A DNA stretch of 33,389 bases from Schoenoplectus triqueter (taxonomy: Eukaryota; Streptophyta; Magnoliopsida; Poales; Cyperaceae), in NCBI GenBank assembly GCA_964058805.1, contig CAXKVV010001298.1, forward strand, positions 1 to 33,389, in the 5' to 3' direction. How positions within the stretch are numbered: the stretch's first letter is position 1; each line of letters starts with the position of its first letter. A program made the translations under genes and the position numbers. Positions 9,641-25,326 of this stretch are shown here, one piece after another. The notes beneath the pieces are model-generated. The model saw only the letters and a list, made by a program, of their open reading frames with translations, had not been told where the DNA came from and searched no databases.

Positions 9641-9718
9641 GTAAATCAATGTTACTCATCTCAATTGATAAAATTATATTTTATTCATATTTTATTAGAG
9701 GTGTAGGTGTATGTTTAC

Positions 9719-9736
9719 CCTTGAAAGATGTCAAGG
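9719..9736. other. Short stem-loop near the left edge of the insertion
   Basis: CCTTGA pairs with TCAAGG across a six-base loop. It is the first of the stem-loops met on entering the non-coding block. Confidence 0.6.
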
Positions 9737-9938
9737 ATGAATAGATGAATAAATGAAAATAAAATTGATGATTAATGATAAATCATGAGAAGAGGGAAGA
9801 AGAGAAAGCAATGAAAGATGGCCCACTAATCAGGAGAGGTCGCTGCTTAACCCCGGAACAAATTCATTAATCCCACAATGAAATATTAGGGTGAAAGACG
9901 AGGATATAAATACCCCACCACCTCCTACTCATTCGAGG

Positions 9939-9991
9939 TGGCTGACCCTCGGGAGATTTAGGAGAGAGAAAATCTCCTGATGGGTCAGCCA
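9939..9991. other. Nested perfect hairpin (10 + 8 bp)
   Basis: TGGCTGACCC (9939-9948) pairs perfectly with GGGTCAGCCA (9982-9991). Inside it GGAGATTT (9952-9959) pairs perfectly with AAATCTCC (9970-9977) around a ten-base purine loop. The internal joints are 3 and 4 bases. This is one of the longest perfect stems in the block. Confidence 0.9.
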
Positions 9992-10130
9992 TTTGACTAC
10001 ATTTTCTCTGACAAGTGGGACCCACCTGACAGTCCCTTGTAGATGAACCTGACGACATAAACATAGCCTATCTGATGAGTCACCCATGTGACCATTTTCA
10101 CTGACAGGTGGACCCCACACCTCAGTGACC
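9982..10130. repeat. Diverged duplication carrying GTGGG/CCCAC hairpins
   Basis: About 9982-10035 and 10078-10131 are diverged copies with the same order: a GTCA..TGAC hairpin (second copy GTCAC, loop CCAT, GTGAC), ATTTTC, then a GTGG..CCAC hairpin. In the second copy the latter is enclosed by CACTGA (10097-10102) and TCAGTG; in the first only CTG and CAG enclose it. Pairing is retained while flanking sequence differs. Confidence 0.6.
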
Positions 10131-10302
10131 TACTATAGGGGTCAGAGTTGAACCCTAAAAATCTGCCTTTGGAGCTAACCCTAGAAAGGAGCTGAAGCAG
10201 TATAATCCCTATGCTACATGAAATGATGTCAATGCCAAGCTAGCATTTTGATGCAACTAGTCATGAGAAATTCCAAATGTGATTTTGCTTTCAAGGCTGA
10301 CC

Positions 10303-10511
10303 TGGTGCCAAAGCTGCGAGCAACCACCTAACCATGCTTTGATTTGTGTCAATTACTGATAAGTAGTCAGTTCTTTGACCAAGTCACCCTCATGTTAAGG
10401 GATTGAAAGACAATTTCACAAGACTGATCAGGTGCCAAAGCTGGGAGCAACCATCTGATCAAGTCTAGATCTGTATCAATTGTTGACATATAATCAACTG
10501 TTGATCAGATC
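10303..10511 (+). repeat. Tandem duplicated stem-loop pair, about 128 bp period, with covarying stems
   Basis: Two copies of a two-hairpin module. The first hairpin (10303-10326 and 10425-10461) keeps the loop CAAAGCTGCGA or CAAAGCTGGGA closed by GC/GC and GGT/ACC; in the second copy TGATCA encloses it on both sides. The second hairpin is longer. In copy 1 (10340-10386) its segments are TGATTTG, bulged T, GTCAA, ACTG, a nine-base loop, CAGT, TTGAC and CAAGTCA. In copy 2 (10468-10511) they are GATCTG, bulged T, ATCAA, GTTG, a nine-base loop, CAAC, TTGAT and CAGATC. Arms change together between copies while the bulge, joints and loop length stay. Confidence 0.8.
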
Positions 10512-10931
10512 AAGCCCTAATGAATATCAATATAAGTCTAATTGGTATTTAGTTAGGGTGGTTTCTGCAAGAGGGAGATAATTGGCAGAGACATTGAGCT
10601 ACAAATGAAATCAGGGATTAATTCTGAAGGAATAACAGGGTTTATTTGATAAAAGAATTTTTAATTCAGAGAAGGAGGGGCAAAAATGGAATTAAAAATT
10701 ACAGGGGTGATCATCATGATTTTAGGGATTTTTGGTGAAATTTTCATGATTTTTGGATAAGTGGAGCTATCAGAATAAATTCAGGGAAGATAAAAGCAGA
10801 ATAAATGGATTAATCAAAGGCTGAGATTTGATCAGAGCAACTCTGGGTACAAATTGGGGATAATAACAGCTCTGGGTACAAACTGGGTGCAAGAAACACA
10901 GAAGGAATAAAATAAGCGAAGAGAGAGGGTG

Positions 10932-11197
10932 TGCCACGTGGCAGCCTCTCATTGGGCCATGTCAGCAAGTGGGCCCCACCCTGGTATGAGTCACTGACAT
11001 GTGGGCCCCACCTTAGTGCCACGTGGCAGACAACCAGTGGGCCACCTCACCACCCTAGTGCCACATGGCTTTACACCACAGGGCCACTTCACCCTCCCAG
11101 TGCCACATGGCAACACCATGGCATCACACCTCAACACTCCAGTGCCATATGGCAGCTGACCATTGGTGCCACATCACAGGGGACTAAGCCACATGGC
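10932..11197. repeat. Cluster of GCCAC-GTGGC type palindromes
   Basis: Perfect 12-base palindromes TGCCACGTGGCA occur at 10932-10943 and 11017-11028, and TGCCATATGGCA at 11143-11154. Near-palindromes with a CA centre lie at 11060-11069, 11101-11112 and 11188-11197. The first is extended by GAGAGG on its left and CCTCTC on its right. The CACGTG core also resembles a G-box, and the nearby GTGGGCCCCAC is itself palindromic. The spacing of 30-85 bp is irregular. Confidence 0.8.
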
Positions 11198-11230
11198 ACT
11201 ACACTACAGAGCCACCTCAGCATGCTATAA

Positions 11231-12337
11231 CAGATGATTAATAGATTGATTAAACAAGTGGACCTATCAGGGTGTGCCAAGTCAGATTAATTAGATTTAA
11301 GCAGAGAGTTAATCAATCCACAGCTGGACTAATGGGCCGAGATTCATATACTTACACATGGGGCCCATTTGTCAGGTTTTTGAATGTATAGCTCACACAG
11401 GCAATCATGCACCAAGCCTATGCACAGATCTAAACAGAGATTTAAATCAAAAGGAAAAAGCGATGTGTACCTGGCTCACTTGTGTTGCGCCTCTGACTGT
11501 GGGTCCCACCTAGCTGTGGACTTTGTGCGCCAGGCACACCTCCTTCCCTCTCTTCTCCTTCTCCCCTCCCTCTCTTTCTTCTTCTTCTCGCCGAGGCCGA
11601 TGGCGCCATTAGTGTTAATTGAGTTCTCTGAAGCTTGAAGCTTCAATCCTTTATAGCTAAAGATAGCCTGTACAAAGGAGAGAAAGGATGAGCGCTCGAA
11701 ATTAAAAGAAAACAATTGAATAGAGCAGTGAGAGAGAATGATCACCTCGGGCGATTAATGAAGAACTTTGATCCGTGGGTCTAAGCTTAAAATTGATGAT
11801 ACAAGCAAACTTTAATCACCTAGGCGATGCTGTAAATGAAAGAAAAAACAGCAATTGAATGTTGAATAAGAACAATTGAGATAAGATGACAAGGTCGGAT
11901 AAATTGAGGAAAGTTAGAACCTTATGCTATAGACTCGAATTGGCAGTGTTTATGGCTTCCATGCACTCACACGATGATGTTGAAATGGTGAAGTTTGACA
12001 ATTGAATGGAGGAGCTATGGCAATAGCTAAGGTGTGAGCTCGGGTGATGAAGCTTTAAGCTTTGAAGAAAAATAACAATGGCAGAGGGTAAAAGGGTGCC
12101 TCAGATGCATTAGAGTGAGTATATATAGTATGTTTAGATGCTCTAGAAGGTTCTAGCAACAGATAAGAAGTGAGTCAAACGTGGTTAACAGCCAAAGACT
12201 TGAGCTTTGGATTCTTTGAATGGGACCCACATCTCAACAGAATGAATAACAGAATCAAAAGACCATGTTCATAGGCCAAGGCAGTTCAATCAATGGTGTT
12301 TAGATGGTGTATGGCTATAATCCTTTGGTGCACCACT
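11231..12337. other. Non-coding part of the insertion, little recognisable
   Basis: No coding frame is supported; the overlapping opposed frames at 11384-11745 match no family I know. A CT-rich stretch lies at about 11540-11590. Small inverted repeats are visible: AAGCTT pairs at about 11629-11641 and 12050-12064, CTAGAA/TTCTAG at 12143-12156, and the 10-base palindrome TGGTGCACCA at about 12326-12335. These continue the palindromic character of the block. Confidence 0.4.
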
Positions 12338-12454
12338 CCAATTGCCTATATAACCCGAGTAATAGCACACACAGACAGGGGGAGACAATATAACAGACCA
12401 GAGAGAGATAGAGAGAGATAGACTAGAGAGCTATAGCATAGAAAAGGCAATTGG
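12338..12454 (+). promoter_or_regulatory. TATA-like box inside a 10 bp inverted repeat, followed by a GA-rich leader
   Basis: CCAATTGCCT (12338-12347) and AGGCAATTGG (12445-12454) are perfect inverted repeats about 97 bases apart. TATATAA (12347-12353) starts on the last base of the left arm, and a GAGAGAGATA-rich tract follows at about 12401-12425. The layout is that of a promoter with a purine-rich leader that could start transcription of the plus strand toward the stem-loop families downstream. Transcription is inference. Confidence 0.35.
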
Positions 12455-12494
12455 AAGAGAAGAATTAATTGTGAGAAGGAAAGAAAGCCAAGAA

Positions 12495-12529
12495 ACCGAT
12501 TGATCTCAGTTTTAACTTGAGAACTCGGT
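12495..12529 (+). other. Stem-loop family B, copy 1
   Basis: Outer arms ACCGA and TCGGT; inner arms TCTC with GAGA and AGTT with AACT, one bulged T on the 3' side, loop TT. The joints TTGA (5') and AC (3') are the same in all three copies. The total length of 35 bases is also the same in all three. Confidence 0.85.
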
Positions 12530-12782
12530 TGTTACATCTCCAATTATTCACTAGAAGGTCAGTCTTGAGCTTAATTCCAATTGGATTTGAAGTTTCAGTA
12601 TTGAAATTTCGATGTAATTGATATATCGCATTTGAATCTTAGAGTAACAGTATCTTTGAGTTGAATTTTTCAATTTCTTTCCTTTAGTTTGCAAATTCAT
12701 AACTTCTTTCCTCTAATATTTGATCTGAATTACAGTTCTTGTTTTGTTTCTTGATTGGATTTCAAGTAATTAAGCTGGTTAA

Positions 12783-12817
12783 ATCGATTGATCTCGGTTA
12801 AAACCTGAGAACTCGAT
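12783..12817 (+). other. Stem-loop family B, copy 2
   Basis: Outer arms ATCGA and TCGAT, inner arms TCTC/GAGA and GGTT/AACC with a bulged T, loop AA. Relative to copy 1 the outer second pair changed from C-G to T-A and the first inner pair from A-T to G-C, both by changes on both sides. TGGT and ACCA flank it and could extend the stem. Confidence 0.85.
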
Positions 12818-12915
12818 ACCAGTAGAAGTTCTTGCTTTGATTCTTTGTTTAAACGTCAAATTCATCTCAGTCTGTGTTTGTATCTTATGTATTCAAGGTC
12901 GTTGTGTTGTTCAAA

Positions 12916-12950
12916 GTCGATTGATCTCAGTTTTAACTTGAGAACTCGAC
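12916..12950 (+). other. Stem-loop family B, copy 3
   Basis: Outer arms GTCGA and TCGAC, inner arms as in copy 1. The outermost pair is G-C instead of A-T, again by a double change. No pair of the stem is broken in any of the three copies. Confidence 0.85.
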
Positions 12951-13236
12951 GGAATTAATGATCTTCAACGTGTTATCGCGTCGTACCAGTTAAATCCAGT
13001 TCCAGACTTGAGATTAGGGAAAATTACATGCATGATTGGATATAGCTCAGTTATAATTGTCATTATGAAGCCTATTAAGTGCATAAGTCGCATTGAAAGT
13101 GGATGAGTAGTCGGAATTTTGAGTGAAAGATGATCGGTATCGGGCGATGCTGCACTGTGTCAATTTCTTTAGATCATAATGTAATTATCGTCCAAATTAG
13201 GTATATAATCTCGACTTAACTCCTATAGACACGTTA

Positions 13237-13277
13237 AACGATGCATTATCAATTCTGAATTGTCAGGAAACATCGTT
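13237..13277. other. Stem-loop with two perfect arms
   Basis: AACGATG (13237-13243) pairs with CATCGTT (13271-13277); inside, AATTC pairs with GAATT around a single T, with unpaired joints of 7 and 9 bases. Confidence 0.6.
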
Positions 13278-13305
13278 AAAATTAGTTATAAATCATGTCT
13301 ATACC

Positions 13306-13527
13306 TTCGGTACCGAACTGCACCACTGCTCTCCGAATAATATTTGTCAGTGTGATTCATTGGGTCAATTTAAGCTGCAATAATCATGTTAATTCATACT
13401 AGCATACGTAAACGATGCAAATAGGGCATTTAATTGTACAAAATATTGATTAATTCCATTGAATTTCTAAGAATTGAGATTCGGTACCGATTGGTACCAA
13501 ACCGACCCATTTAGCATTGGTATACCA
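13306..13527. repeat. Series of GGTACC/GGTATACC palindromes
   Basis: TTCGGTACCGAA (13306-13317, 12-base perfect palindrome), TCGGTACCGA (13481-13490), TTGGTACCAA (13491-13500) and TGGTATACCA (13518-13527). Three perfect 10-base palindromes fall within 47 bases; their centres are related but their arms differ, each staying self-complementary. Confidence 0.85.
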
Positions 13528-13949
13528 TGTGATTCACCGCATAGATCATTAATCGAACGCCGTAGAATAACTCCTCACGGCAAGACGACCCTAAGGCAGT
13601 CGCCTGATCGGAGGGAGATGGCCGCAGTCGCCGGCGCTGCCAATGGCACGAATCTTGGAACTCATGTTGACTGGAGAGTCAGAGAATCGCGGCAGCACGG
13701 ATATTGATGCGCGTGTGTGAATCTTGAAGAGATCGAGCGTTTGAAATAAAAGCACTGTTTTAAATAAAGATACAGAATGAATCTGGGCCTTACATCTCAT
13801 GAGATTTAATCTTGAAGCAAATCTGACAGCCCAAATAAGAACAGAGTTGAATAAAAGATAGGCGCCAATCTTGGTGCAGATCCAAAGGCCCATATTTAAC
13901 CCATTAATTAAATAATAACAAAATAGTAATGATATAGAATAAATAAATG
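13528..13949. other. Non-coding part of the insertion, GC-richer then AT-rich
   Basis: A GC-richer island at about 13560-13720 gives short open frames on both strands that match no family I know. I see no splice pattern or conserved motif that would support a gene. Confidence 0.35.
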
Positions 13950-15013
13950 ATTTGAAAATGCTCATGAACTCCAAATTGACTCAAATTTGTTTCTAAAATT
14001 TCCTTATTTTTCATATTATTTTTCTATATGATGATATTCCAGTTTTAAAAATATAATCATGGTGAAACAATTTAAAAGCAAAAGACATTATATATATTGA
14101 TATATTGACCTAGCTTTGACTTGTCATTTTAAATGCTATAAAAATTCCAAAAATACAAATAAAATCATGAATAATAACTAGATATATTTTACTGATTTTT
14201 CAAGTGATTTTTCATGAAATAATAATGACAATAGTAATATGCAATAATAAATGATGAGATTAGCTATATTCTTTGATAAAAAAAATATAATAATAAATAA
14301 TAATAGATATTATGTTGATATTCTCTATAAAAAGAATAATAAAATGAATAGTACAAAAAATACAAAAACATATGTTACCATGATAATAGATAATAAATAC
14401 ATTTTCTCCTATAATAAAGAGTGATAATATAGCTTTATAATAATATGAATTGCATTTCTTTTGTTATTTCTATACAAATATACAATAAAAATATTTTTAT
14501 GAATAAAATGCAATAAAAATAATAGTTGTAATAAAAATATAATGAATTTCATTTCTTATGACTATTTTCTAATAATAATAATAAAAAAAAAATCTTATAC
14601 TTTCCTATAGATAATAAATAGAAATAATAAAAATAATAATAATAATAATAATAAATAGTATAATAAATAAGATAGAATATTGATAATGATTTCTTCTTAG
14701 CTATTATAGATTTAAAAAAAATATAATAAAAAAATATAATAATAAAGATAATATAGCTAACCATCTTTTGATTTTATTTTCTAGTATTTTGTAAGTGATT
14801 TTTCTACAAAATAAATAGAGTTTAAGAATAATAAAAATAAAAAATTCTACTATTTTAGCTATTATAAAAATCCCAAAAATATAAATAAAATTCTAGTTAA
14901 TAGCTAACCCCTTTTTCTTATTATTTTTGTAAATAATTTTTCTACATAAATAAATAGAGTTTAAAAATAAAAAAAATATATAATAAAAATAATAATAATA
15001 ATAATAATAAAAA

Positions 15014-15052
<39 letters not shown>

Positions 15053-15060
15053 ATAAATTC
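13950..15060. repeat. AT-rich block with AAT/ATA microsatellites
   Basis: Very AT-rich sequence with AAT runs at about 14568-14583, 14625-14655 and 14985-15051. The open frames here are poly-isoleucine/tyrosine artefacts of the repeat. It splits the stem-loop-rich insertion in two and may be a separate insertion or a local expansion. Confidence 0.75.
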
Positions 15061-15186
15061 ATTTTCATAATAGAGATATTATGTAATAGGCTTTGTACAT
15101 TTTGGAGATGAACAAAAATGCTCACACAAGGAGTGTAGAGCCACATGAGGATGTTTGCATACATGATGTAACATTTAGAACGATTA

Positions 15187-15440
15187 GTCAGGACAAGAAC
15201 ATCTTGACGAAGGATAAACAAGGTTGCAACGGCAACACGAGAAGATACGTCAAGACAGGAACATTTTGACGTAGGATGATTAAGGCTTTGATAGCAACAT
15301 GAGAAGATATGTCGAGACAAGAACATCTTGACACTTGATAAAGAATAATAAGACACGTCGAGACAGGAACATCTTGACGTAGGATGATTAAGGCTTCGAT
15401 AGCAACATGAAGAGATATGTCAAGACAGGAATATCTTGAC
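15187..15440 (+). repeat. Five-copy stem-loop family C (GTCAAGA ... TCTTGAC)
   Basis: Five 22-base hairpins at 15187-15208, 15249-15270, 15311-15332, 15357-15378 and 15419-15440, with start spacings of 62, 62, 46 and 62. The 7-base arms enclose an eight-base loop (CAGGAACA or close variants). Arm variants are GTCAGGA, GTCAAGA and GTCGAGA on the left, TCTTGAC and TTTTGAC on the right. Every departure from Watson-Crick pairing is G-T on this strand. The next pair outward is C-G in copies 2 and 4, T-A in copy 3 and T-G in copy 5. GTTGC/GCAAC pairs between the first two copies. Confidence 0.85.
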
Positions 15441-15549
15441 GCTTGATGAAAAATAACCAGAGCTGCGACATCAACACGGAGATACATGTCGACTCTGAGG
15501 AAGAAGAACATTACGGTGTCCGAGAGAAGTGACATCTTAATGACTCGGT

Positions 15550-15572
15550 GTCATGAACAAGTAATTCATGAC
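15550..15572. other. Perfect 8 bp stem-loop
   Basis: GTCATGAA pairs with TTCATGAC around the seven-base loop CAAGTAA. It lies just before the large array at 15586. Confidence 0.85.
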
Positions 15573-15585
15573 CATTTGAGCTAGC

Positions 15586-16239
15586 AAGACTGAACTCACC
15601 CGTCGATGAGTTTGTCTTCTGGTGCATCTCCCGAAATCGTGAGATTGAATCGTCCTGTAGTAGATTCATCCACAAAACAGTGAATGTGAACCGTTCTGTA
15701 GGTAGGTTCCTTCATTAACACATGCCTCAATGTTGAACTGGCTCAGCGCTTCAGGTTTGACATTGTGTGTAATTGTGTTTCCTAGGTTTATGAATCGGCT
15801 TAGTGCTTCGAATTCATGATCTAGAAGATCGGTGAGAAGAAACACGTGGGCCATATCCACCCTTCTCCTGATTTGCCAACCTCAAGATCAACCGGCTCAG
15901 TGCTTCGAGTTGTATTTTGTGTGATTGGTTGTTGACTAGTTAAGATTGAACCGTTCTGTAGTAGGTTTGTCTTCTAGATCAACGGAGGTCGAGTCGTTCT
16001 GTATGTAGACTCACCTCAAGCCCCTCTGAAGAGACTAACCTGGTCTGTAGTAAGGTTACATCTCGAGGTGGCATAGACTGAACCGATCTGTTTGTAGGTT
16101 CATCTTCCATAGGACAAAACCGATCTGTTTGTAGGTTTGTCTTCCATAGAATTAAGTAGAGATTGAACCGATCTGTTTGTAGGTTCGTCTTTCACAGGGT
16201 TAGATAAAGACTGAACCGATCTGTTTGTAGGTTCGTCTT
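15586..16239 (+). repeat. Array of 13 stem-loops (family D): two conserved loops, covarying stems
   Basis: Hairpins at about 15586-15618, 15643-15670, 15683-15716, 15728-15765, 15782-15824, 15889-15912, 15936-15977, 15985-16017, 16023-16068, 16075-16105, 16111-16143, 16160-16190 and 16207-16239. Loop type I is GNYCTGT followed by four or five bases ending GTA (for example GTTCTGTAGTA, GATCTGTTTGTA). Loop type II is GCTCAGCGCTT, GCTTAGTGCTT or GCTCAGTGCTT. Inner arms pair in each copy although they differ: GAATC/GATTC, GAACC/GGTTC, GAGTC/GACTC, TAACCT/AGGTTA, AAACC/GGTTT. Most have a one-base bulge on the 5' side, then outer arms that also pair: AAGAC/GTCTT, GAGGT/ACCTC, GAGA/TCTC, AGGAC/GTCTT. 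The first hairpin has a different loop. A minus-strand frame at 15666-15860 is a shadow. Confidence 0.85.
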
Positions 16240-16540
16240 CCATGGACCCCTTTTATGAACCTAGACGACCACTTGACCATCTTTTAACTATACTATTTGC
16301 TTCTCTCTTTCAAAGATCCAGAGGTGCCTCGAGGTTAGTAGCCCAGGGTAATTAACGGTGGGGGCTTGCGCCCACCGGAATATACAAGAACTCACAATCA
16401 CTAAAAAACCCCCTGAATGTGCATCCAAATCACTCTAAACGGCAGAACCGGCCGACACCCAGCAGATGCACGCTCGGGAGGGATCTCCGTGTCCTTCTTC
16501 CGCGAACCCATCGCCCAGCGGCGGTGCGGCGGCGCGCGAA
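16240..16540. other. Right part of the insertion with a GC-rich hairpin
   Basis: CGGTGGG (16356-16362) pairs with CCCACCG (16371-16377) around an eight-base loop, and GAGG/CCTC pairs at 16321-16330. From about 16435 to 16540 the sequence is unusually GC-rich (several GGCGG and GCGCG words), a sharp change next to the PMD exon. The true right boundary of the insertion is probably in this interval. Confidence 0.45.
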
Positions 16541-17012
16541 AAAGGGTCGCACAGTGTAGAACTGAGGAGCTTCCACTAGGTGATCCTGAGCCTCAATTGC
16601 GACCTCCATACGGTGTCAAATAGGCGACACGATACATGGAGGACCCGAGCATTTTCGGGATTAGTTTGAGAATTTATAGGATCATATCGTCGATTGGATG
16701 CCGTACAGTGCCTATCACGACGACTGAACTTGGATGTACCATGTGCATTACAATTCGTAAGTTTCTAAAATCAATAAAATTTATTTACTTCAATTGGTAC
16801 ATGAATTTAATGTACTAACTTCAACATATGCAGGTGAAAGAGTCGGTGTGGATGATTCACTTCTGGATGGTTGTGAATCACTATCCAAATAAAGTCATGA
16901 GGCAGTTTAGTTTTTTCTAGCAGGTTCCTCCGCCGACGCCAATCGATTACCAACAGGTGCTGACATATCGTAAGAACAAGCACACATTGAGAGGCGGTGG
17001 ATGGCAGAATGT
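16541..17012 (+). pseudogene. PMD pseudogene, middle part
   Basis: The PMD frame resumes with LPLGDPEPQLRPPYG (the family has a closely similar DPxPxLRPPYG segment after the second domain part) and then a stop. It runs on through SLRIYRII, needs a frame change, and continues as WMPYSAY to a GTAAGT donor at 16757. The next exon starts at 16834 after an AG acceptor and reads SVWMIHFWMVVNHYPNKVMRQFSFF, with a TAG before QVPPPTPIDY; the family has VxRQFG followed by Q and IP or VP. It ends abruptly at GGWQNV, where the copia element begins. Stops and the frameshift show decay that is independent of the insertion. Confidence 0.75.
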
Positions 17013-18082
<1,070 letters not shown>

Positions 18083-18083
18083 G

Positions 18084-18095
18084 TGGTATCAGAGC
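18084..18095 (+). promoter_or_regulatory. Primer binding site, initiator tRNA-Met
   Basis: TGGTATCAGAGC, one base after the 5' LTR, is the usual complement of the 3' end of plant initiator tRNA-Met that primes minus-strand synthesis in copia elements. Confidence 0.9.
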
Positions 18096-19468
18096 ATTTG
18101 GTCATTGTATGTGATAAATCATGGCCAAAAGACTAAACTAAATTGATTGATTTATTCATAAGTTGTATATCTAGATAGTTATGCATGAGTTTTTCAGATT
18201 TTTACGAATTGGCATGCGTTCATGCGCATGGTATGTGTTAGATTTGTCAAGTTTGTAAAATTGTTGTAAAAACTGAAAGTTGGGGCTCAGTTTCAAGTCT
18301 ATAAATGGGGTCTATTTCGGGTTAGGAATTGACCAAAGGGGCTGTGATTAATTGAGTCTTCGTTTTGGCCCAAATCGTTAAAGATTGTTCTTTGGAGAGC
18401 CAAAACTGAAAAACTGCAATTTCTGGACAGCAACTTAACCATCATTAGATGATGCTTTTGAATGGTTTCTAGATCATAATAAGAAGTGAAACTGAGCACA
18501 ACCATGCATAATTGTTAGATTATGAATTATGAATAGTTTCAATCGGTTTGGTGCAAGTTATTGCGCTATTCTAACTTTGTTTTGCAGTAGTGGGTTTGTA
18601 TAGCCATGTTCAATGCCTTGTGTGTTGTAATGATTGCATGTATGAATGTTTGTAAGCGGCCTAAGGTGCCCCATGATATTAATTATTTTGTTGCATGATT
18701 AATATTGTATTTATGGCCTGCGTGTCAAGTTAGGAATGGGGATTTCTAATGTAATTTTCTGTTTCGATTTGAGAGTAGTCTTAAATAGAAAATGGGAAAT
18801 TATGGGTACTTAGATCACTAGTTTGTTCATGGAGATGATCAAAGAGGCAGTGATCGGAGGCCAAGGAAGCACAAGGGCTATACAAACTCACGATCATTTG
18901 TGTGGTTGTGCATGTTATTGTTTATGATATTTTATGTGATTGAATTGCGAGTCGTAGGATAGGTATGGGTGTATGCTATCACGACCACCATTCAAAGAGT
19001 CATATAAAATAAAGTCCCTAAAAATTAAGTCGATCTCCCTTCCTCCTCTATCCATGGAAACCTTGTATGGGGTGTTGGTGGGACCTACTCAGTAGGCACT
19101 GCATCCTATCCTTGGGGAAGTGGGGCACGTCGGACGTGTCGTCTCAAATAGAGAGGTTTTACTTAAGCGGGGTAACTCTGGGTTACATACCGACGCTGGC
19201 CTAGTTTGTACCTCGGGGAGGAGTATTCGTCATGAGTACTGGGTACTCAAGACGGAACCAAGAGTCAAATACGATTGTGATTAGCGAGGAGTATGCTTAC
19301 CTAAAATAGCTAAGTTCAAGTTTATGCCGACGCTGGCTTGAGCTTAGTAAAGATAGGGATCTTGGACTCACTACAAATTTTGGGACTTAATAATTGTAGT
19401 GGGAGTTTTATATTTATATAAAACATTACAATGCATGAACTAAATTCAAACCTTTGAAATTGTAGAAC
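18096..19468 (+). other. Untranslated leader of the copia element
   Basis: 1.37 kb without a supported coding frame between the primer site and gag. The word CCGACGCTGGC occurs twice (19190-19200 and 19327-19337). GAGTAC and GTACTC pair around a three-base loop at 19234-19248. A packaging or translation-control role is possible for such a leader but nothing here proves it. Confidence 0.6.
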
Positions 19469-20065
19469 ATGACAAAAGAACCCTCTTTCTCTCTTCGATC
19501 TCTCCTAGACAAAGAAAAACTTAAAAGTGATGGAATGAATTTCATGGATTGGCATCGTAACCTCAGGATAGTCTTGAGGCATGAGAAAAAGGAACACATC
19601 TTAACTCAACCCGTTCCAAAAAAACCCCACGATAAAGCGTCTCAGGCTGACAAGGACAAGTACACCAAGTTCGTGGATGACGAACTTGATGTCTCGTGCC
19701 TAATGGTGGCCACTATGAGTCCAGAGCTTCAAAAGAGGTTTGAAACTCGTGGTGCGTATGAGGTCATGGACACTCTCAAGAACATGTTTCAAGAGAAGGC
19801 CCAGACCGAGATGTACAATGTCACCAAGTCGCTAATGAGATGCACAATGCGCGAGAACGAATCCGTTAGCGCTCATATGCTCAAGATGACTAGTTATATT
19901 GAGCAGCTTGAGAAGCTAGATTGCAAGTGGGACGAGAAACTCATGCGGAACATTGTACTCGGCTCATTGTCATCACGCTTCTCTCAGTTCATTATGAACT
20001 ACAACATGATGGGACTGAAGGGAGGCCTGGATGAGTTATTGGGACTTCTTAAGACTGCCGAGTAG
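19469..20065 (+). CDS. gag: Copia Gag, closed by an in-frame TAG
   Basis: 198 codons of the copia capsid protein (UBN2 / Retrotran_gag_2 type), which assembles the cytoplasmic particle in which reverse transcription takes place. The N-terminus shows SLRSLLDKEKL and NFMDWHRNLRIVL (residues 24-36), the family's tryptophan-containing opening; LMRCTMRENESVSAHMLKM and LGSLSSRFSQF follow. The ATG at 19469 is chosen because it opens the domain at the usual distance. The frame ends TAG at 20063-20065 and the same frame stays open from 20066 on, with the zinc knuckle in the next piece. The stop thus cuts Gag before its RNA-binding end. It most likely replaced a glutamine codon by one C-to-T change; stop readthrough is less likely, as copia elements of this type usually have one open frame. 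Confidence 0.9.
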   Translation: MTKEPSFSLRSLLDKEKLKSDGMNFMDWHRNLRIVLRHEKKEHILTQPVPKKPHDKASQADKDKYTKFVDDELDVSCLMVATMSPELQKRFETRGAYEVMDTLKNMFQEKAQTEMYNVTKSLMRCTMRENESVSAHMLKMTSYIEQLEKLDCKWDEKLMRNIVLGSLSSRFSQFIMNYNMMGLKGGLDELLGLLKTAE

Positions 20066-22090
20066 GACATGAACAAAATATCTTGTAACGTCCTCGCGGT
20101 GAGTCAGAATGGGAAGAAGATTAAAAAGAGTTCCAAGCGCAAGAAGGGCAAGGGCAAAGGCAAGGCTCAAGTGGTGATCTCGAGCAAGTCCAAGTCCAAG
20201 GATGTTTCCGAGGCCGAGTGCTTTTATTGCAAAGGCATAGGGCATTGGAAACGTAGCTGCCCTAAATACCTGAAGGATAAGAAGAATGGGAATGTCCCTA
20301 CTTCATCAGGTATACTTGTTATTGAAATTAACCTTGCTACTTCTATTTCTGATTGGGTGTTGGACACTGGGTCATGTGCTCATATTTGTTCAAATGTGCA
20401 GGCACTAAAGAATAAGAGGTTGCTTGGCAAGGGTGAGATGCTGCTCCGAGTCGGCAATGGAGCGAGTGTTGCTGCTATTGCTGTAGGAGATTTAGATTTG
20501 CATTTACCTAGTGGACTTGTATTAGAACTTAGTAGTGTTTATTATGTTCCTTATATTTCTAGAAATATTATCTCTGTCTCATGTATGGACAATGATGGAT
20601 TTGCTTTTTCTATTAAAGATCGTTGTTTGTCTTTTTATAGAGATGGCTTATTCTATGGTCATTCCCAGGTTGTGAATGGCATATATGTTCTAGAAATAGA
20701 TAATCAAGTCCTTAACATCAATAATAAGAGAATTAAGTCTTCTAATGAGGGTGAGACTCTCATATGGCATCATCGCCTAGGTCATATAAACGAGACGCGC
20801 ATTAAGAAATTACAAGAGGTTGGACTTCTTGGTTGCTTTGACTTAGAGTCGTTAGCAACATGCGAGTCATGTTTATTAGGGAAAATGACTAAAGCACCTT
20901 TTACCAAGCTAGGTGAGAGGGCAAATGACTTATTGGACCTAGTACATAGCGATGTGTGCGGTCCTATGAGCATTGGTGCTAGAGATGGATCAAGATACTT
21001 TGTCACGTTTACTGATGATTTCAGTAGATATGGCTATGTCTATTTGATGAGACATAAGTCTGAATCCTTTGACAAGTTCAAGGAGTTCAAGGCTGAAGTT
21101 GAGAACCAACTCGGAAAGAAGATTAAAGTATTTAGAACGGATCGAGGTGGTGAATACTTGAGCGGTGACTTTAGGGAGTACCTAAAGGAACATGGGATAG
21201 TCCCACAGCTCACTCCTCCCGGGACGCCGCAATGGAATGGTGTCTCTGAGAGGAGGAACAGAACCTTGTTGGACATGGTTCGTTCTATGATGAGCAAAGC
21301 TGAGTTACCACGCTTTTTCTGGGGATTTGCGCTTGAAACTGCTGCATTCACATTGAATCGATTGCCATCAAAGTCCGTTGAAAAGACGCCATATCAGTTA
21401 TGGTTTGGAAGAGTACCAAATGTGCCTTTTCTTAAGATTTGGGGTTGTGAGGCTTATGTCAAACGACTGATGTCTGACAAGCTTAGCCTTAGATCTGATA
21501 AGTGCTTGTTCGTGGGATACCCTAAGGAAACAAAAGGGTACTACTTCTACTTCAAGTCTGAAAATAAGATAATTGTTGCCAGACATGCAATATTCTTGGA
21601 GAAGGAGTTTCTCGCAAGAGGAAGTAGTGGGAGTAGTGTGCAACTTGAAGAAATTCAAGAAGCACATGAGAGTGTAGTCGGTGATGACTCCACAATCTCT
21701 CCTATGGATACTGAGCCTAGTGGGAGTGGGACTCCGGAATCGGGCTTAGAAAATATGGCTCAAGAGGCATCTGAGCCACAAGTACTTCGAAGGTCGAGTA
21801 GATCAAGTCATCATCCTGAAAGATGGTTGGGGCTTCATCAAGGATCAACGGTGGAGACCGAAGATCCCATGACCTATACGGAAGCGATGGCACGGCCCGA
21901 CTCCGCTGAATGGCTTGGAGCCATGCAATCTGAAATACAGTCTATGTACGACAACCAAGTTTGGAATTTGGTTGACCTCCCTGAGGGAGTGCGTCCTATT
22001 GAAAACAAGTGGGTTTTCAAAAGAAAGTCGGACATGGATGGTAACTTGACTACTTATAAAGCACGACTAGTTGCGAAAGGTTACAAATAA
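20066..22090 (+). pseudogene. pol: Copia Gag end, protease, integrase and start of reverse transcriptase
   Basis: In frame with gag; counting from the Met at 20069 it has 673 codons. Domains in order: basic KR-rich linker; CCHC zinc knuckle C51, C54, H59, C64; aspartic protease with WVLDTGS (D99); pre-integrase zinc site H235, H239, C265, C268; integrase core with catalytic triad D295, D358, E394 (35 residues between the last two); the PWN-type segment QWNGVSERRN; then a serine-rich linker and the opening of the reverse transcriptase (NKWVFKRK, YKARLVAKGYK). It ends with TAA at 22088-22090, where glutamine (CAA) is usual after KGY and one residue. All catalytic residues of protease and integrase are present. 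The break falls inside the reverse transcriptase domain, so no polymerase can be made from this frame alone. Confidence 0.9.
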
Positions 22091-23437
22091 ATTCAAGAAA
22101 TTGATTTTGATGAGACCTTCTCGCCCGTAGTCATGTTTAAGTCAATTCGGATATTGTTAGCCATTGCCGCATTTCATGATTATGAGATTTGGCAAATGGA
22201 TGTCAAAACCGCCTTTCTAAATGGAGATTTAGAAGAGGATGTGTATATGACACAACCAATGGGTTTTGAGGATCCAAGTAATGCTAACAAGGTATGTAAG
22301 CTTCGAAGAGCCATTTATGGTTTGAAGCAAGCATCAAGAAGTTGGTACAAACGCTTTGATAGTGAAATCAAAGCGCTTGGCTTTATCAAGTGTGATGAAG
22401 AGCCATGTGTGTACAAACGATTCAGTGGGAGTAATATTGTGTTTCTCATATTATATGTGGATGACATATTGCTGATCGGAAATGATATTCCTACCTTGGA
22501 AGAAATCAAGTCATCATTGAAGAAGATTTTCTCAATGAAAGACTTGGGCGAGGCTGCCTATATTTTAGGCATAAGGATCTATAGGGATAGATCAAGGAGA
22601 CTTATTGGATTAAGTCAAGAATCATATTTGGACAAGGTGTTGAAGAGGTTCAACATGCAAGATTCCAAGAAAGGAAACTTGCCCATGTCCCATGACATTG
22701 ATCTCAGCAAGAAGCAGTGTCCTAAGACAACAGCTGAGCTCGAGAGCATGAAGAAGATACCATATGCTTCTGCAATTGGATCTATCATGTATGCCATGAT
22801 ATGTACTCGCCCAGATGTGTTATACGCGTTAAGTGTGGCAAGTAGACATCAAGCAAATCCAGGGTTCGCACATTGGACTGCGGTAAAAACTATCCTGAAG
22901 TACTTGAAAAAGTCTAAAGATATGTTTCTCGTCTATGGAGGAGAAACTGAGCTCGTTGTAAGAGGTTACACGGATGCTAGTTTCCAAACAGATCGTGATG
23001 ATCTAAGATCGCATACAGGGTTTGTGTTCACCCTCAATGGTGGTGCTGTGAGTTGGAGGAGTTCCAAACAAGATACGACAGCAGACTCAACCACAGAGGC
23101 TGAATACATAGCCGCCTCGGAGGCAGCTAAAGAAGGTGTATGGATCAAGAAGTTCGTAGTTGAGCTTGGTATAGTCCCCAGTGCTTCCGGACCATTGGAG
23201 CTCTATTGTGACAACAATGGAGCCATCGCACAAGCGAAGGAACCTCGATCACATCAGAAGTCAAAGCATGTTTTACGGAGATATCACCTAATTCGCGAGA
23301 TTGTCGAACGAGGTGATGTCAAGGTTTGTAAGATAGATACGGAGGCGAACACAGCCGACCCACTGACTAAGCCCTTATCTCAGGCCAAACACACGATGCA
23401 CACAGCTGGAATGGGCATCAAGTTTATGTGTGATTGA
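22091..23437 (+). pseudogene. pol: Copia reverse transcriptase and RNase H, 3' part of pol
   Basis: Same frame as the preceding piece, opening directly after the TAA; the first Met is at 22133, giving 434 codons. Counting from it: D23 in QMDVKTAFLNG and YVDD at 108-111 are the reverse transcriptase metal ligands, and IYGLKQASRSWY is the family signature. RNase H follows with D281 (GYTDASF), E324 (TEAEYIAAS), D360 (YCDNNGAI) and D409 (TADPLTK). It closes with a normal TGA 120 bp before the 3' LTR. No frameshift and no lost catalytic residue are seen. The Met at 22133 is internal to the domain and is not a natural start. Confidence 0.9.
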
Positions 23438-23546
23438 CATTGAGAGTCTTCATGAGTCATGTACATGGGGATGTACTTCGGGCTACCCAAATTAGTTAGA
23501 GTTGTATTCTTTTATGCATGGAGATTGTATATTAGATTGGCTCTAG

Positions 23547-23560
23547 CTCAAGTGGGAGAT
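23547..23560 (+). promoter_or_regulatory. Polypurine tract
   Basis: AAGTGGGAGAT directly before the 3' LTR is the expected primer site for plus-strand synthesis; AGTGGGAGAT ending at 23560 is typical of plant copia elements. Confidence 0.8.
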
Positions 23561-25326
23561 TGTTAGTGTTGTAGTGATCTAGTAGCCAATCATTGGATGA
23601 TTGTATTTAGTTTCATGTAAAAGGATGATATATTTGATATTTCATTTGTTCCTTGAGTATTCATTGTTTATATTTTGAGTTGGACTTCAAATGTGAAACA
23701 TATATATATATATATATATATATATAAAGATTATAATGAAAAACTCTAGAAGTCCCTAATCCATTCATTATCTAGGAATAATAATTAACACAAATGGATT
23801 AGTATGTAAGTTAAGTGTTGATCGTGTTTCACAGATCACTCGATAAGGAGTTATCGGCTTAATTACACAAATAGCATGTTGGACATGTTATTGGACATGA
23901 CCCATGTTGAAATACTATAAAGATTATGTTTGATGTCATTAGTATTTCATTTGGATGCTAATTCTTAGGTTGAGACAAATGATCTTCTTATACGTCTGAT
24001 TTGTATTTGTGGATATCGTCTAACGTTGTCCGTAACTGGCAGCCATAAGGGCTTTATCTCAGTGTACGTCTTTCGTATGAAGGGGATGCATGAGTCAAGA
24101 AGACCGATGTCTCTTTTGTTTGTCGACGGGAGTGATGATATCCAACTAGGTGCACATAGTATACGAATGCATTGCAATGGATGACATGATCTTGCCTTGC
24201 AACATTCGGGATATCATAGGACATAGAATAAGCATGAGGCAATTGTCGTTGCCTAGGACCGGGATATAAGTACCGCACTCATGTCTGAATTATTTAGGGG
24301 TTGTGATGCATATTGCTGGGTGCCGCTCACAATCTATGAGATTAAGGGGTTTAATCTCATTGCTAAATAATTTAGGTCCCAAAGGGTCACACCGTGAGAG
24401 GATTGTGCCTCTATTCGTTCCTTGATCATTTAATATGTTGGACATATTAAATTGAGTCTTAAACATGAGATATATATAGTCATAGAAAATGACTAATTAA
24501 TTATATTTATCAAATGGTTTGATAAATAGGCTGAAATTATGAAAACGATGCAAAAATAGCCCGGTTCAGCCCCATTCGACTTTCATTCGGCCCAAATACC
24601 CATAGTGCAAGACACCTCACTATTCTGGACACATGAAGCCCAACTAGGGCCCTTCTAATGGATGCACAAGGCCTAAAGTAGTGGGTGGTTATGCCAAAAC
24701 GTGGGTAGAAGGCAATGCTGAAGTTGGGAGCTGTTTTGCCACGTTTTCAGCAGTTTTTCAGCAGTTTTTCGGCAGTTTTTTTTGCTGTTTTGGGCTGTTC
24801 TCCACTCTAGAATGTGGGGAGACTACCTAGGGACATGGGAGAGGAGTCTCCTGCCTTGGGGCTCTATAAAAGGAGGCCTAGGCAGCCAAGAAACCCATCG
24901 ATCTTTCACTTACGCACGCGGAAGCTCTGCTGAATTTCTGCCGCGTATCTCATGTGTTGAGACCCATCTTCCACCAGATTTTTCACATAGATTAAAGGAG
25001 TTTAATCACAGTGGTGTGGAGGAGATCAAGGAGAGTCTCCCTAGCATCCTAGCAAGTGCGAAGGAGATCGGATAGTGGGCTGCCTCGGTGGATACCTTGG
25101 AGGGCGCCTACGCTTGGTGTCTTTGCGGGTACCGGTGCAAATCGAGCGAGAAGGAGACTACCCCGAGCCTCCCCGAAGACTCACGCATCAAAGGTACAAT
25201 AGTTTAGTCTAGATCTATGATTTTGGTTCAGTTTTATCACATGCAAGATCCTTGTTTGAATTGTGCACCGAAAAATTTAAAATTCCGCATGTTCGTGTAC
25301 TTGCTTGTTCAAACTAAATTCCAACA
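23561..25326 (+). repeat. 3' LTR of the copia element, full length (1766 bp)
   Basis: It starts TGTTAGTGTTG and ends CCAACA, a short inverted pair. The first 1 kb matches the 5' LTR; the remainder is present only here. TATAAAA at 24865-24871 follows repeated CAGCAGTTTTT words (about 24747-24790) and lies upstream of the probable R region. The plus frame at 24782-25075 spans the TATA box and is not a gene. The end is supported by the PMD exon resuming directly after it. Confidence 0.85.
24865..24871 (+). promoter_or_regulatory. TATA box of the 3' LTR
   Basis: TATAAAA in the context GCTCTATAAAAGGAGG is the best core promoter in the element. The 5' LTR has lost the corresponding segment. In this position it could drive read-out into the PMD remnant and downstream flank. 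Confidence 0.7.

Follow-up and report, generated by a model that had tools for sequence, protein, structure and literature searches.

What is a row of short stem-loops in which the loops recur from copy to copy and the arms do not? The question was raised by positions 15586-16239 of a 33,389-nucleotide stretch of the Schoenoplectus triqueter genome (contig CAXKVV010001298.1; hereafter the window, i.e. the whole stretch that was analysed). For this region the original prediction had described thirteen stem-loops with conserved loops and covarying stems, had attributed them to selection on RNA structure and had named template switching as a neutral alternative.

The hairpin array and its host element

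The predicted location stood, and the count was corrected: the main fold of the + strand contained 14 stem-loops (Table 1). Nine carried the class A loop (GNYCTGT..GTA) and three the class B loop (GGCTYAGYGCTTC), both numbers as predicted, and two hairpins (H1 and H6) were unlike either class. An alternative hairpin, which competes with its neighbour H2, lies outside these 14. The typical hairpin had two helices of 5 bp, separated by a single unpaired 5'-side base (the bulge), and a loop of 11-12 nt.

Ten of the 40 arrays supplied 51 distinct class-A hairpins for a covariance model (R1); one of the 52 regular-expression matches (L048:200-232, not a hairpin) had been removed by hand prior to alignment. 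On the 33-kb window, R1 found the nine class-A hairpins with 38.8-48.7 bits (E 1.1e-7 or better), all nine being among its own building sequences, and gave a tenth, weak match at H1 (18.4 bits, E 0.024); the 10 matches were all in the array and on the + strand. On 198 kb of 20 other stretches, 216 matches (E up to 0.1) were obtained, all of them in homologous arrays on the sense strand (checked by eye). The original prediction had proposed a search with an Infernal-type model; across the window and these 20 stretches of the same genome, such a model found arrays only, in the sense orientation. When 15090-16600 was searched against Rfam 15 (E up to 5), there were 3 matches, none above its gathering score (best: E 0.42, 20.9 bits against 60). 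A stand-alone plant non-coding RNA gene was ruled out: at the loci examined, the model matches were confined to LTR arrays.

The array lies in a 6,842-bp solo LTR (TG...CA), the edges of which were placed by BLAST against 20 fetched stretches. The TG...CA termini and the 5-bp target-site duplication GTGTA are those of an LTR retrotransposon, here of the Ty3/gypsy superfamily. The source genome of the window (82 Mb, 2,086 contigs) was searched for further copies: a first look gave 664 candidate places, 40 of which were scored (window included), and in 40 of 40 the array was covered wholly or nearly wholly at 94-100% identity. As judged from its sequence, the array is part of a high-copy Ty3/gypsy LTR retrotransposon, near the 3' end of the LTR; this context makes it a cis-element of a mobile element and not a plant gene.

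In some cases, other copies continue past the terminal CACA into GATCTGGCACGCCCGGTGGGAC, which matches the 3' end of tRNA-Arg(TCT) genes, and then into gag-pol frames. The primer-binding site (PBS), TGGCACGCCCGGTGGGAC, is complementary to the 3' terminus, CCA included, of two such genes of the same genome; this tRNA-Arg(UCU) type of primer site is absent from the solo LTR of the window and present in full-length copies. In one copy (L010), the Pfam matches followed the order RVT_1, RT_RNaseH, RVT_3, H2C2 and rve, with RVT_3 (a second RNase H type) at 784-896 of the frame, between RT-RNaseH and integrase; this frame stops within the integrase core, and the integrase frame of another copy (L022) has 437 amino acids. 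Retrotrans_gag matched the upstream frame of L022, and no chromodomain match was found in the four frames scanned with Pfam. By domain order alone, these are features of the Tat-type non-chromovirus group, of which we take a second RNase H together with the lack of a chromodomain to be the mark. The best of three gag matches was a taro protein (27% identity over 28% of the query) and the other two came from two further plants, which makes a plant host very likely.

Two observations concern the surroundings of the LTR copies. A Ty1/copia-like element adjoins the solo LTR on the right (17012-23999 and beyond), with pol-like frames at 19466-23437 (named by eye) and near-identical direct repeats at 17012/23560 and 17224/23700. 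Within 20 kb at L011/L012 (C2057:436000-454999), there are several LTR copies from both array families, in opposing orientations.

Table 1. Coordinates of the LTR, its signals and the hairpins within the window
Feature	Position	Strand	Basis
Left copy of 5-bp target-site duplication GTGTA	9707..9711	.	direct reading; edge by BLAST of other copies
Solo LTR of Ty3/gypsy element, first letters TGTTTACCC, last letters GGGTCGCACA	9712..16553	+	extent common to other copies
TATAAATA box; putative transcription start ~30 bp downstream	9905..9912	+	7/8 LTR starts
Upstream class-C hairpins (GTCRRGA / CARGAAYA loop / YYTTGAC) in tandem repeats; starts 15187, 15249, 15311, 15357, 15419	15187..15440	+	
H1, unlike; AAGAC-T-GAACTCA stem, loop CCCGTCGA	15586..15618	+	
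H2, class A, loop GTCCTGTAGTA; competing fold 15626-15645	15639..15673	+	fold, covariance model
H3, class A	15680..15715	+	fold, covariance model
H4, class B, loop GGCTCAGCGCTTC, 3'-side bulge	15729..15764	+	fold
H5, class B	15790..15817	+	fold
H6, unlike; ATCGG-T-GAGAAG stem, inner GTGG/CCAC helix	15828..15872	+	fold
H7, class B	15884..15918	+	fold
H8, class A	15942..15973	+	fold, covariance model
H9, class A, GAGTC/GACTC	15985..16017	+	fold, covariance model
H10, class A, TAACCT/AGGTTA	16031..16064	+	fold, covariance model
H11, class A	16075..16105	+	fold, covariance model
H12, class A, AAACC/GGTTT	16111..16143	+	fold, covariance model
H13, class A	16158..16192	+	fold, covariance model
H14, class A; best model match of the window	16207..16239	+	fold, covariance model
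U5 arm; in full-length copies, complementary to the leader immediately 3' of the PBS	16251..16335	+	fold and duplex energies
Right copy of target-site duplication GTGTA	16554..16558	.	read in window

Covariation, strand and divergence

By themselves, the stem counts were modestly above chance: among 300 dinucleotide shuffles, perfect stems of at least 5 bp averaged 11.8 ± 3.5 (maximum 23), where 21 were present, and those of at least 6 bp averaged 3.0 ± 1.8 (maximum 12), where 8 were present. The folding energy of the array region as a whole gave z -3.1 on the + strand and -4.1 on the - strand (20 shuffles each); being no stronger on the + strand, it does not pick a strand and was dropped as strand evidence. 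The shared architecture and the covariation provided stronger evidence than raw stem counts. Among the 51 distinct class-A paralogues, 90.2% of the pair cells held standard pairs (76.5 ± 1.0 shuffled), 99 cells were changed on both sides (27.3 ± 5.5 shuffled) and the covariation score was 0.559 (0.275 ± 0.018 shuffled; 0.08-0.19 in slid registers), values that none of 500 shuffles reached, although shuffles overstate the covariation of paralogues because the hairpins are related. Two other measures, 8 of 10 pairs doubly changed and 20 additional pair types, did not exceed shuffled alignments (reached by 300 and 249 of 500, respectively). In the inner stem, 623 of 675 cells were Watson-Crick (433 ± 11 shuffled) over 135 distinct loop matches from the 40 arrays, a few of these matches not being hairpins. 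The predicted arms that differ and stay complementary are borne out by the doubly changed cells.

Orthologous arrays were extracted by alignment; extraction on long BLAST matches found 2 of 20 family-B loci. Cells paired at 98.2% in family A (19 copies) and at 97.8% in family B (19 copies, leaving out L046 and L048, which have longer arrays), levels that are biased by a structure chosen with G-U allowed on the + strand, a bias that affects the counts of changes from Watson-Crick pairs less. The family A copies were too alike: one double change was seen (reached by 74 of 500 shuffles), and the covariation of 0.027 was not above the shuffled 0.026 (68 of 500). In the same family, H1 paired in 90.4% of cells; among its 12 pairs, one was disrupted in 10 and another in 12 of the 19 copies. 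In family B, 4 pairs and 6 cells were double-changed (reached by 16 and 1 of 500 shuffles, respectively) and the covariation was 0.053 against 0.049 (0 of 500).

The strand was addressed with single changes. One transition in a Watson-Crick pair gives either G-U, which is allowed in the sense RNA, or A-C, which is allowed only in the antisense RNA. Orthologous stem changes from a Watson-Crick consensus comprised 49 G-U, 27 A-C, 15 other single and 5 double changes; for the 49:27 ratio, unpaired sites in these arrays predict about 55:59 (p 0.003 in a binomial test and 0.0013 in Fisher's test), the counts being variants and not independent events on a tree. A held-out set was made of 40 further copies fetched afterwards, 38 of which were kept after two duplicates had been dropped. 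Here 5,519 of 5,627 cells paired and the new variants were 25 G-U, 11 A-C, 10 other single and 3 double (G-U:A-C expected about 26.5:28.7, p 0.008). Two pairs of these held-out copies showed the full path via G-U (GC 25, GU 11, AU 2; AU 26, GU 10, GC 2). The class-C hairpins upstream lean toward G-U as well: in 28 distinct versions, the pair cells were 155 Watson-Crick, 29 G-U, 8 A-C and 4 other, 16 of the 29 G-U cells coming from a single position at which G-U is the usual pair (13 G-U against 8 A-C without it). These counts support the sense strand as the structured RNA, and a function at the RNA level in that strand is very probable. The selection on RNA structure that had been predicted gains support from the paralogue covariation, the G-U excess and the stepwise series from GC through GU to AU.

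Substitutions among copies amounted to 2.8-3.4% in 15712-16461 and 7.6% in 15462-15711; left of the array, 13962-15461 had 6.2-14.8%, and values as high as 29% were seen beyond it. When 13 alignments were profiled more finely, in 75-bp bins and under different gap costs, 15585-16259 had 1.8-11.6%, 15060-15509 had 17-33%, a figure probably inflated by misregister of tandem repeats, and the remaining LTR had 1.3-7.4%. Divergence in the array is lower than in the LTR sequence that precedes it. This is no peculiarity of the array, since the first 750 bp of the LTR, with the promoter, are likewise well kept (2.6-5.6% substitutions). Minor alleles reached 1.28% in stems, 1.75% in loops and 2.32% in spacers of family A, and 2.38%, 3.06% and 5.08%, respectively, in family B. 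Family B arrays were 84-87% identical to the array of the window (three copies measured). A four-hairpin block of about 174 bp was present in duplicate in family B and in triplicate in L046 and L048, which indicates an array built of repeated multi-hairpin units whose stems drifted apart with pairing kept.

On the neutral account, template switching or conversion among tandem copies would re-match the arms with no selection at all. Growth by tandem duplication of the ~174-bp unit suits this account, as does a family A covariation that does not exceed shuffles, but template switching makes perfect arms at once and predicts neither the excess of G-U over A-C steps, seen in two copy sets, nor the intermediates that were observed. 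With the 5' bulge kept and the array less diverged than the sequence before it, this alternative fits poorly and is very unlikely.

Probable position in the element RNA

In 7 of the 8 distinct LTR starts identified by BLAST, that of the window among them, TATAAATA stands 185-194 bp into the LTR; the eighth (L028) had TATAAATG at the corresponding place. From this box near the LTR start, we infer a transcription start near 9935; nearly the whole LTR would then be leader, and the array, ~5.7 kb 3' of the probable start, would fall in the U5 part. All 35 AATAAA signals on the + strand of this LTR lie upstream of the array, from 9748 to 15052. Overall, the array probably sits in the 5' leader. A promoter just upstream of U5 (TATACTA at about 16285) was rejected, since the local sequence pairs with the post-PBS leader and the canonical TATAAATA is near the LTR start. 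Inside the LTR, the hairpin region is preceded by an AT-rich stretch with many AATAAA (13900-15080; ~15% GC in 14001-15000).

Directly 3' of the array, the U5 arm can pair with the leader in a duplex that encloses the primer site; this holds for four of the six copies whose PBS was recognisable and whose flank was long enough. The duplex energy was -66 to -82 kcal/mol in L002, L004 -, L013 - and L022, and -42 kcal/mol in L009, which is the L002 copy with its leader truncated; L010 folded with z -6.0. The duplex was absent from the other two of the six copies (L007 and L013 +), where the post-PBS sequence differs (ACTATCAAAATAAACTC...) and lacks the U5 complement. Some copies carry tandem repeats of the terminal ~77 bp of U5 (L007 896-1185, L013 7364-7508 and others), and the repeats of L007 include the PBS.

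The putative 6.6-kb leader contains 139 ATGs. Immediately 5' of the first gag ATG, a 3'-splice-like tract (branch-like TGACTAAT, T-rich, GCAG) matched the pattern in 3 loci (L002, L010 and L022, the first two being one copy) and suggests a leader intron that contains the PBS. In L010 the tract reads TGACTAATAATTTTC...TTTTTGTTTTGCAG around 1031-1064, with equivalents in L002 and L022. A clear 5' splice donor was not found: the R-U5 of the window had 1 donor-like site (at most one mismatch) against 2.5 expected by shuffling, and the surroundings of this site had no homologous counterpart among the 20 stretches compared. These signals bear on a role in translation or splicing, in which the hairpins would help ribosomes bypass, or the spliceosome remove, the long leader (shunt/IRES-like or intron retention). 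Plain scanning through so many ATGs is unlikely and the splice-like tract is placed as such a role would have it, but the donor-like site is a single one, below expectation, and hairpins of 10-12 bp with conserved loops are atypical of shunt stems; we consider this role unlikely.

Published relatives and proposed role

Published systems were compared on the portions of each paper that were available. The nearest case seen was that of the Sirevirus LTRs (Ty1/copia), which hold clusters of palindromic repeats with a CGG-CCG core (one element excepted) upstream of the TATA box (PMC2829016). In both cases repeat clusters able to form hairpins lie inside a plant LTR (PMC2829016). The array described here differs in superfamily, place and core: it belongs to a Ty3/gypsy element, has no CGG-CCG core in its arms, lies downstream of the TATA box, and keeps its loop while the arms covary. 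Identification as a Sirevirus palindromic repeated motif was rejected on the Ty3 domain order, the GAACC/GGTTC arms and their variants, and the position downstream of TATA.

For the maize Sirevirus palindromes, cis-regulatory or small-RNA roles have been proposed (as cited in the available part of PMC10760457). Published clusters of this kind (PMC2829016, PMC10760457) favour, by analogy, an array that acts as DNA, through transcription-factor sites or cruciforms, or that is a hairpin source of host small RNAs. Sites bound as dyads keep their arms and leave the centre free, whereas these paralogues retain the centre and differ in the arms, and the array is ~5.7 kb downstream of the TATA box. 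Stems of 10-12 bp are short for Dicer, which counts against a small-RNA source; either role seems improbable.

Two further plant elements share other traits. The LTR of the rice element Retrosat2 exceeds 3.2 kb, carries CCAAT/TATA close to the 5' end and includes an R region of 2 kb; most of this LTR would accordingly be transcribed (PMC3485330). It resembles the present element in a very long LTR, of different length, with TATA near the LTR start; unlike here, no hairpin array is described in the main text as available, where 'stem-loop' occurs 0 times (PMC3485330). Retand/Tat elements belong to the same broad Ty3/gypsy non-chromovirus group by domain order and also have repeat arrays in non-coding sequence, but these lie between pol and the 3' LTR, the LTRs measure 315-1,194 bp, and 'hairpin' and 'stem' occur 0 times in the available main text (PMC11963269).

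In full-text literature, mostly without subscription papers, no covarying hairpin array in an LTR leader was named among the matches listed. Retroviral and Ty1/Ty3 leaders hold a few unlike stem-loops and are not known to have a tandem row of one covarying hairpin type. The present case would be a structured retroelement leader in array form. What would be shared with the packaging and dimerisation leaders is a structured 5' genomic RNA around the PBS, as described, in the parts available, for Ty3 (PMC11381356) and for the packaging structure of the MMTV leader (PMC8096270).

The hairpin, repeated with natural compensatory variants in many copies, is a ready-made covariation data set. LTR retrotransposons make up much of plant genomes and, to our knowledge, their cis-acting RNA signals have hardly been mapped; the array supplies a well-defined hypothesis on a binding site and could be used to study how such elements distinguish genomic RNA from mRNA. 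A reason for the great length of some plant LTRs is suggested as well: much of this one is probably transcribed leader.

The proposed mechanism is as follows. The array would be a structured cis-acting element in the U5 part of R-U5, in the 5' leader of the genomic RNA, where the sense RNA would fold into a series of short bulged hairpins; their stems would be free to change only in both arms together, with loops and bulge preserved. Next to the array would be the long duplex between U5 and leader around the tRNA-Arg(UCU) primer site. The loop-plus-bulge unit would be a putative multivalent binding site for the Gag/nucleocapsid of the element or for a host RNA-binding protein, and the bound array would mark the unspliced genomic RNA for packaging. 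To this reading, a multivalent protein-binding leader array that marks genomic RNA, most simply for packaging by Gag, we assign a probability of roughly one half. Loops and bulge that are kept, arms that are free but complementary, the many copies and the location next to the PBS domain agree with a protein-binding array, and Gag packaging is the first choice as it needs exactly such recognition. Retroviral packaging hairpins usually sit 3' of the PBS, so the placement in U5 counts against packaging; the absence of the U5/leader duplex from two of the six copies counts against the favoured reading too. That packaging or genomic RNA recognition is the job of the array is, taken separately, plausible at a little under even odds. 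A more tentative version is that the array, as a tandem and expandable set of 10-bp bulged hairpins (GNYCUGUnnGUA loop) amplified via the four-hairpin unit, may nucleate Gag assembly on the genomic RNA; it would then be a packaging signal in the form of a repeat array.

In place of Gag, the bulged loops might bind a host export factor, by which unspliced genomic RNA would leave the nucleus constitutively. The constitutive transport element (CTE) of simple retroviruses is the analogy for such export of unspliced RNA, and many near-identical loop sites in an RNA that may carry an intron would suit it; no Rfam family scored above its gathering threshold (best E 0.42), and we regard this alternative as rather improbable.

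Pairing of the loops was assessed. Kissing or tRNA pairing was rejected for loops A, B and H1, which paired to the primer tRNA, to U5/PBS/leader or to early gag no better than shuffled. The class-C loops gave 4 and 9 of 200 against early gag and the leader, respectively (uncorrected, 18 tests).
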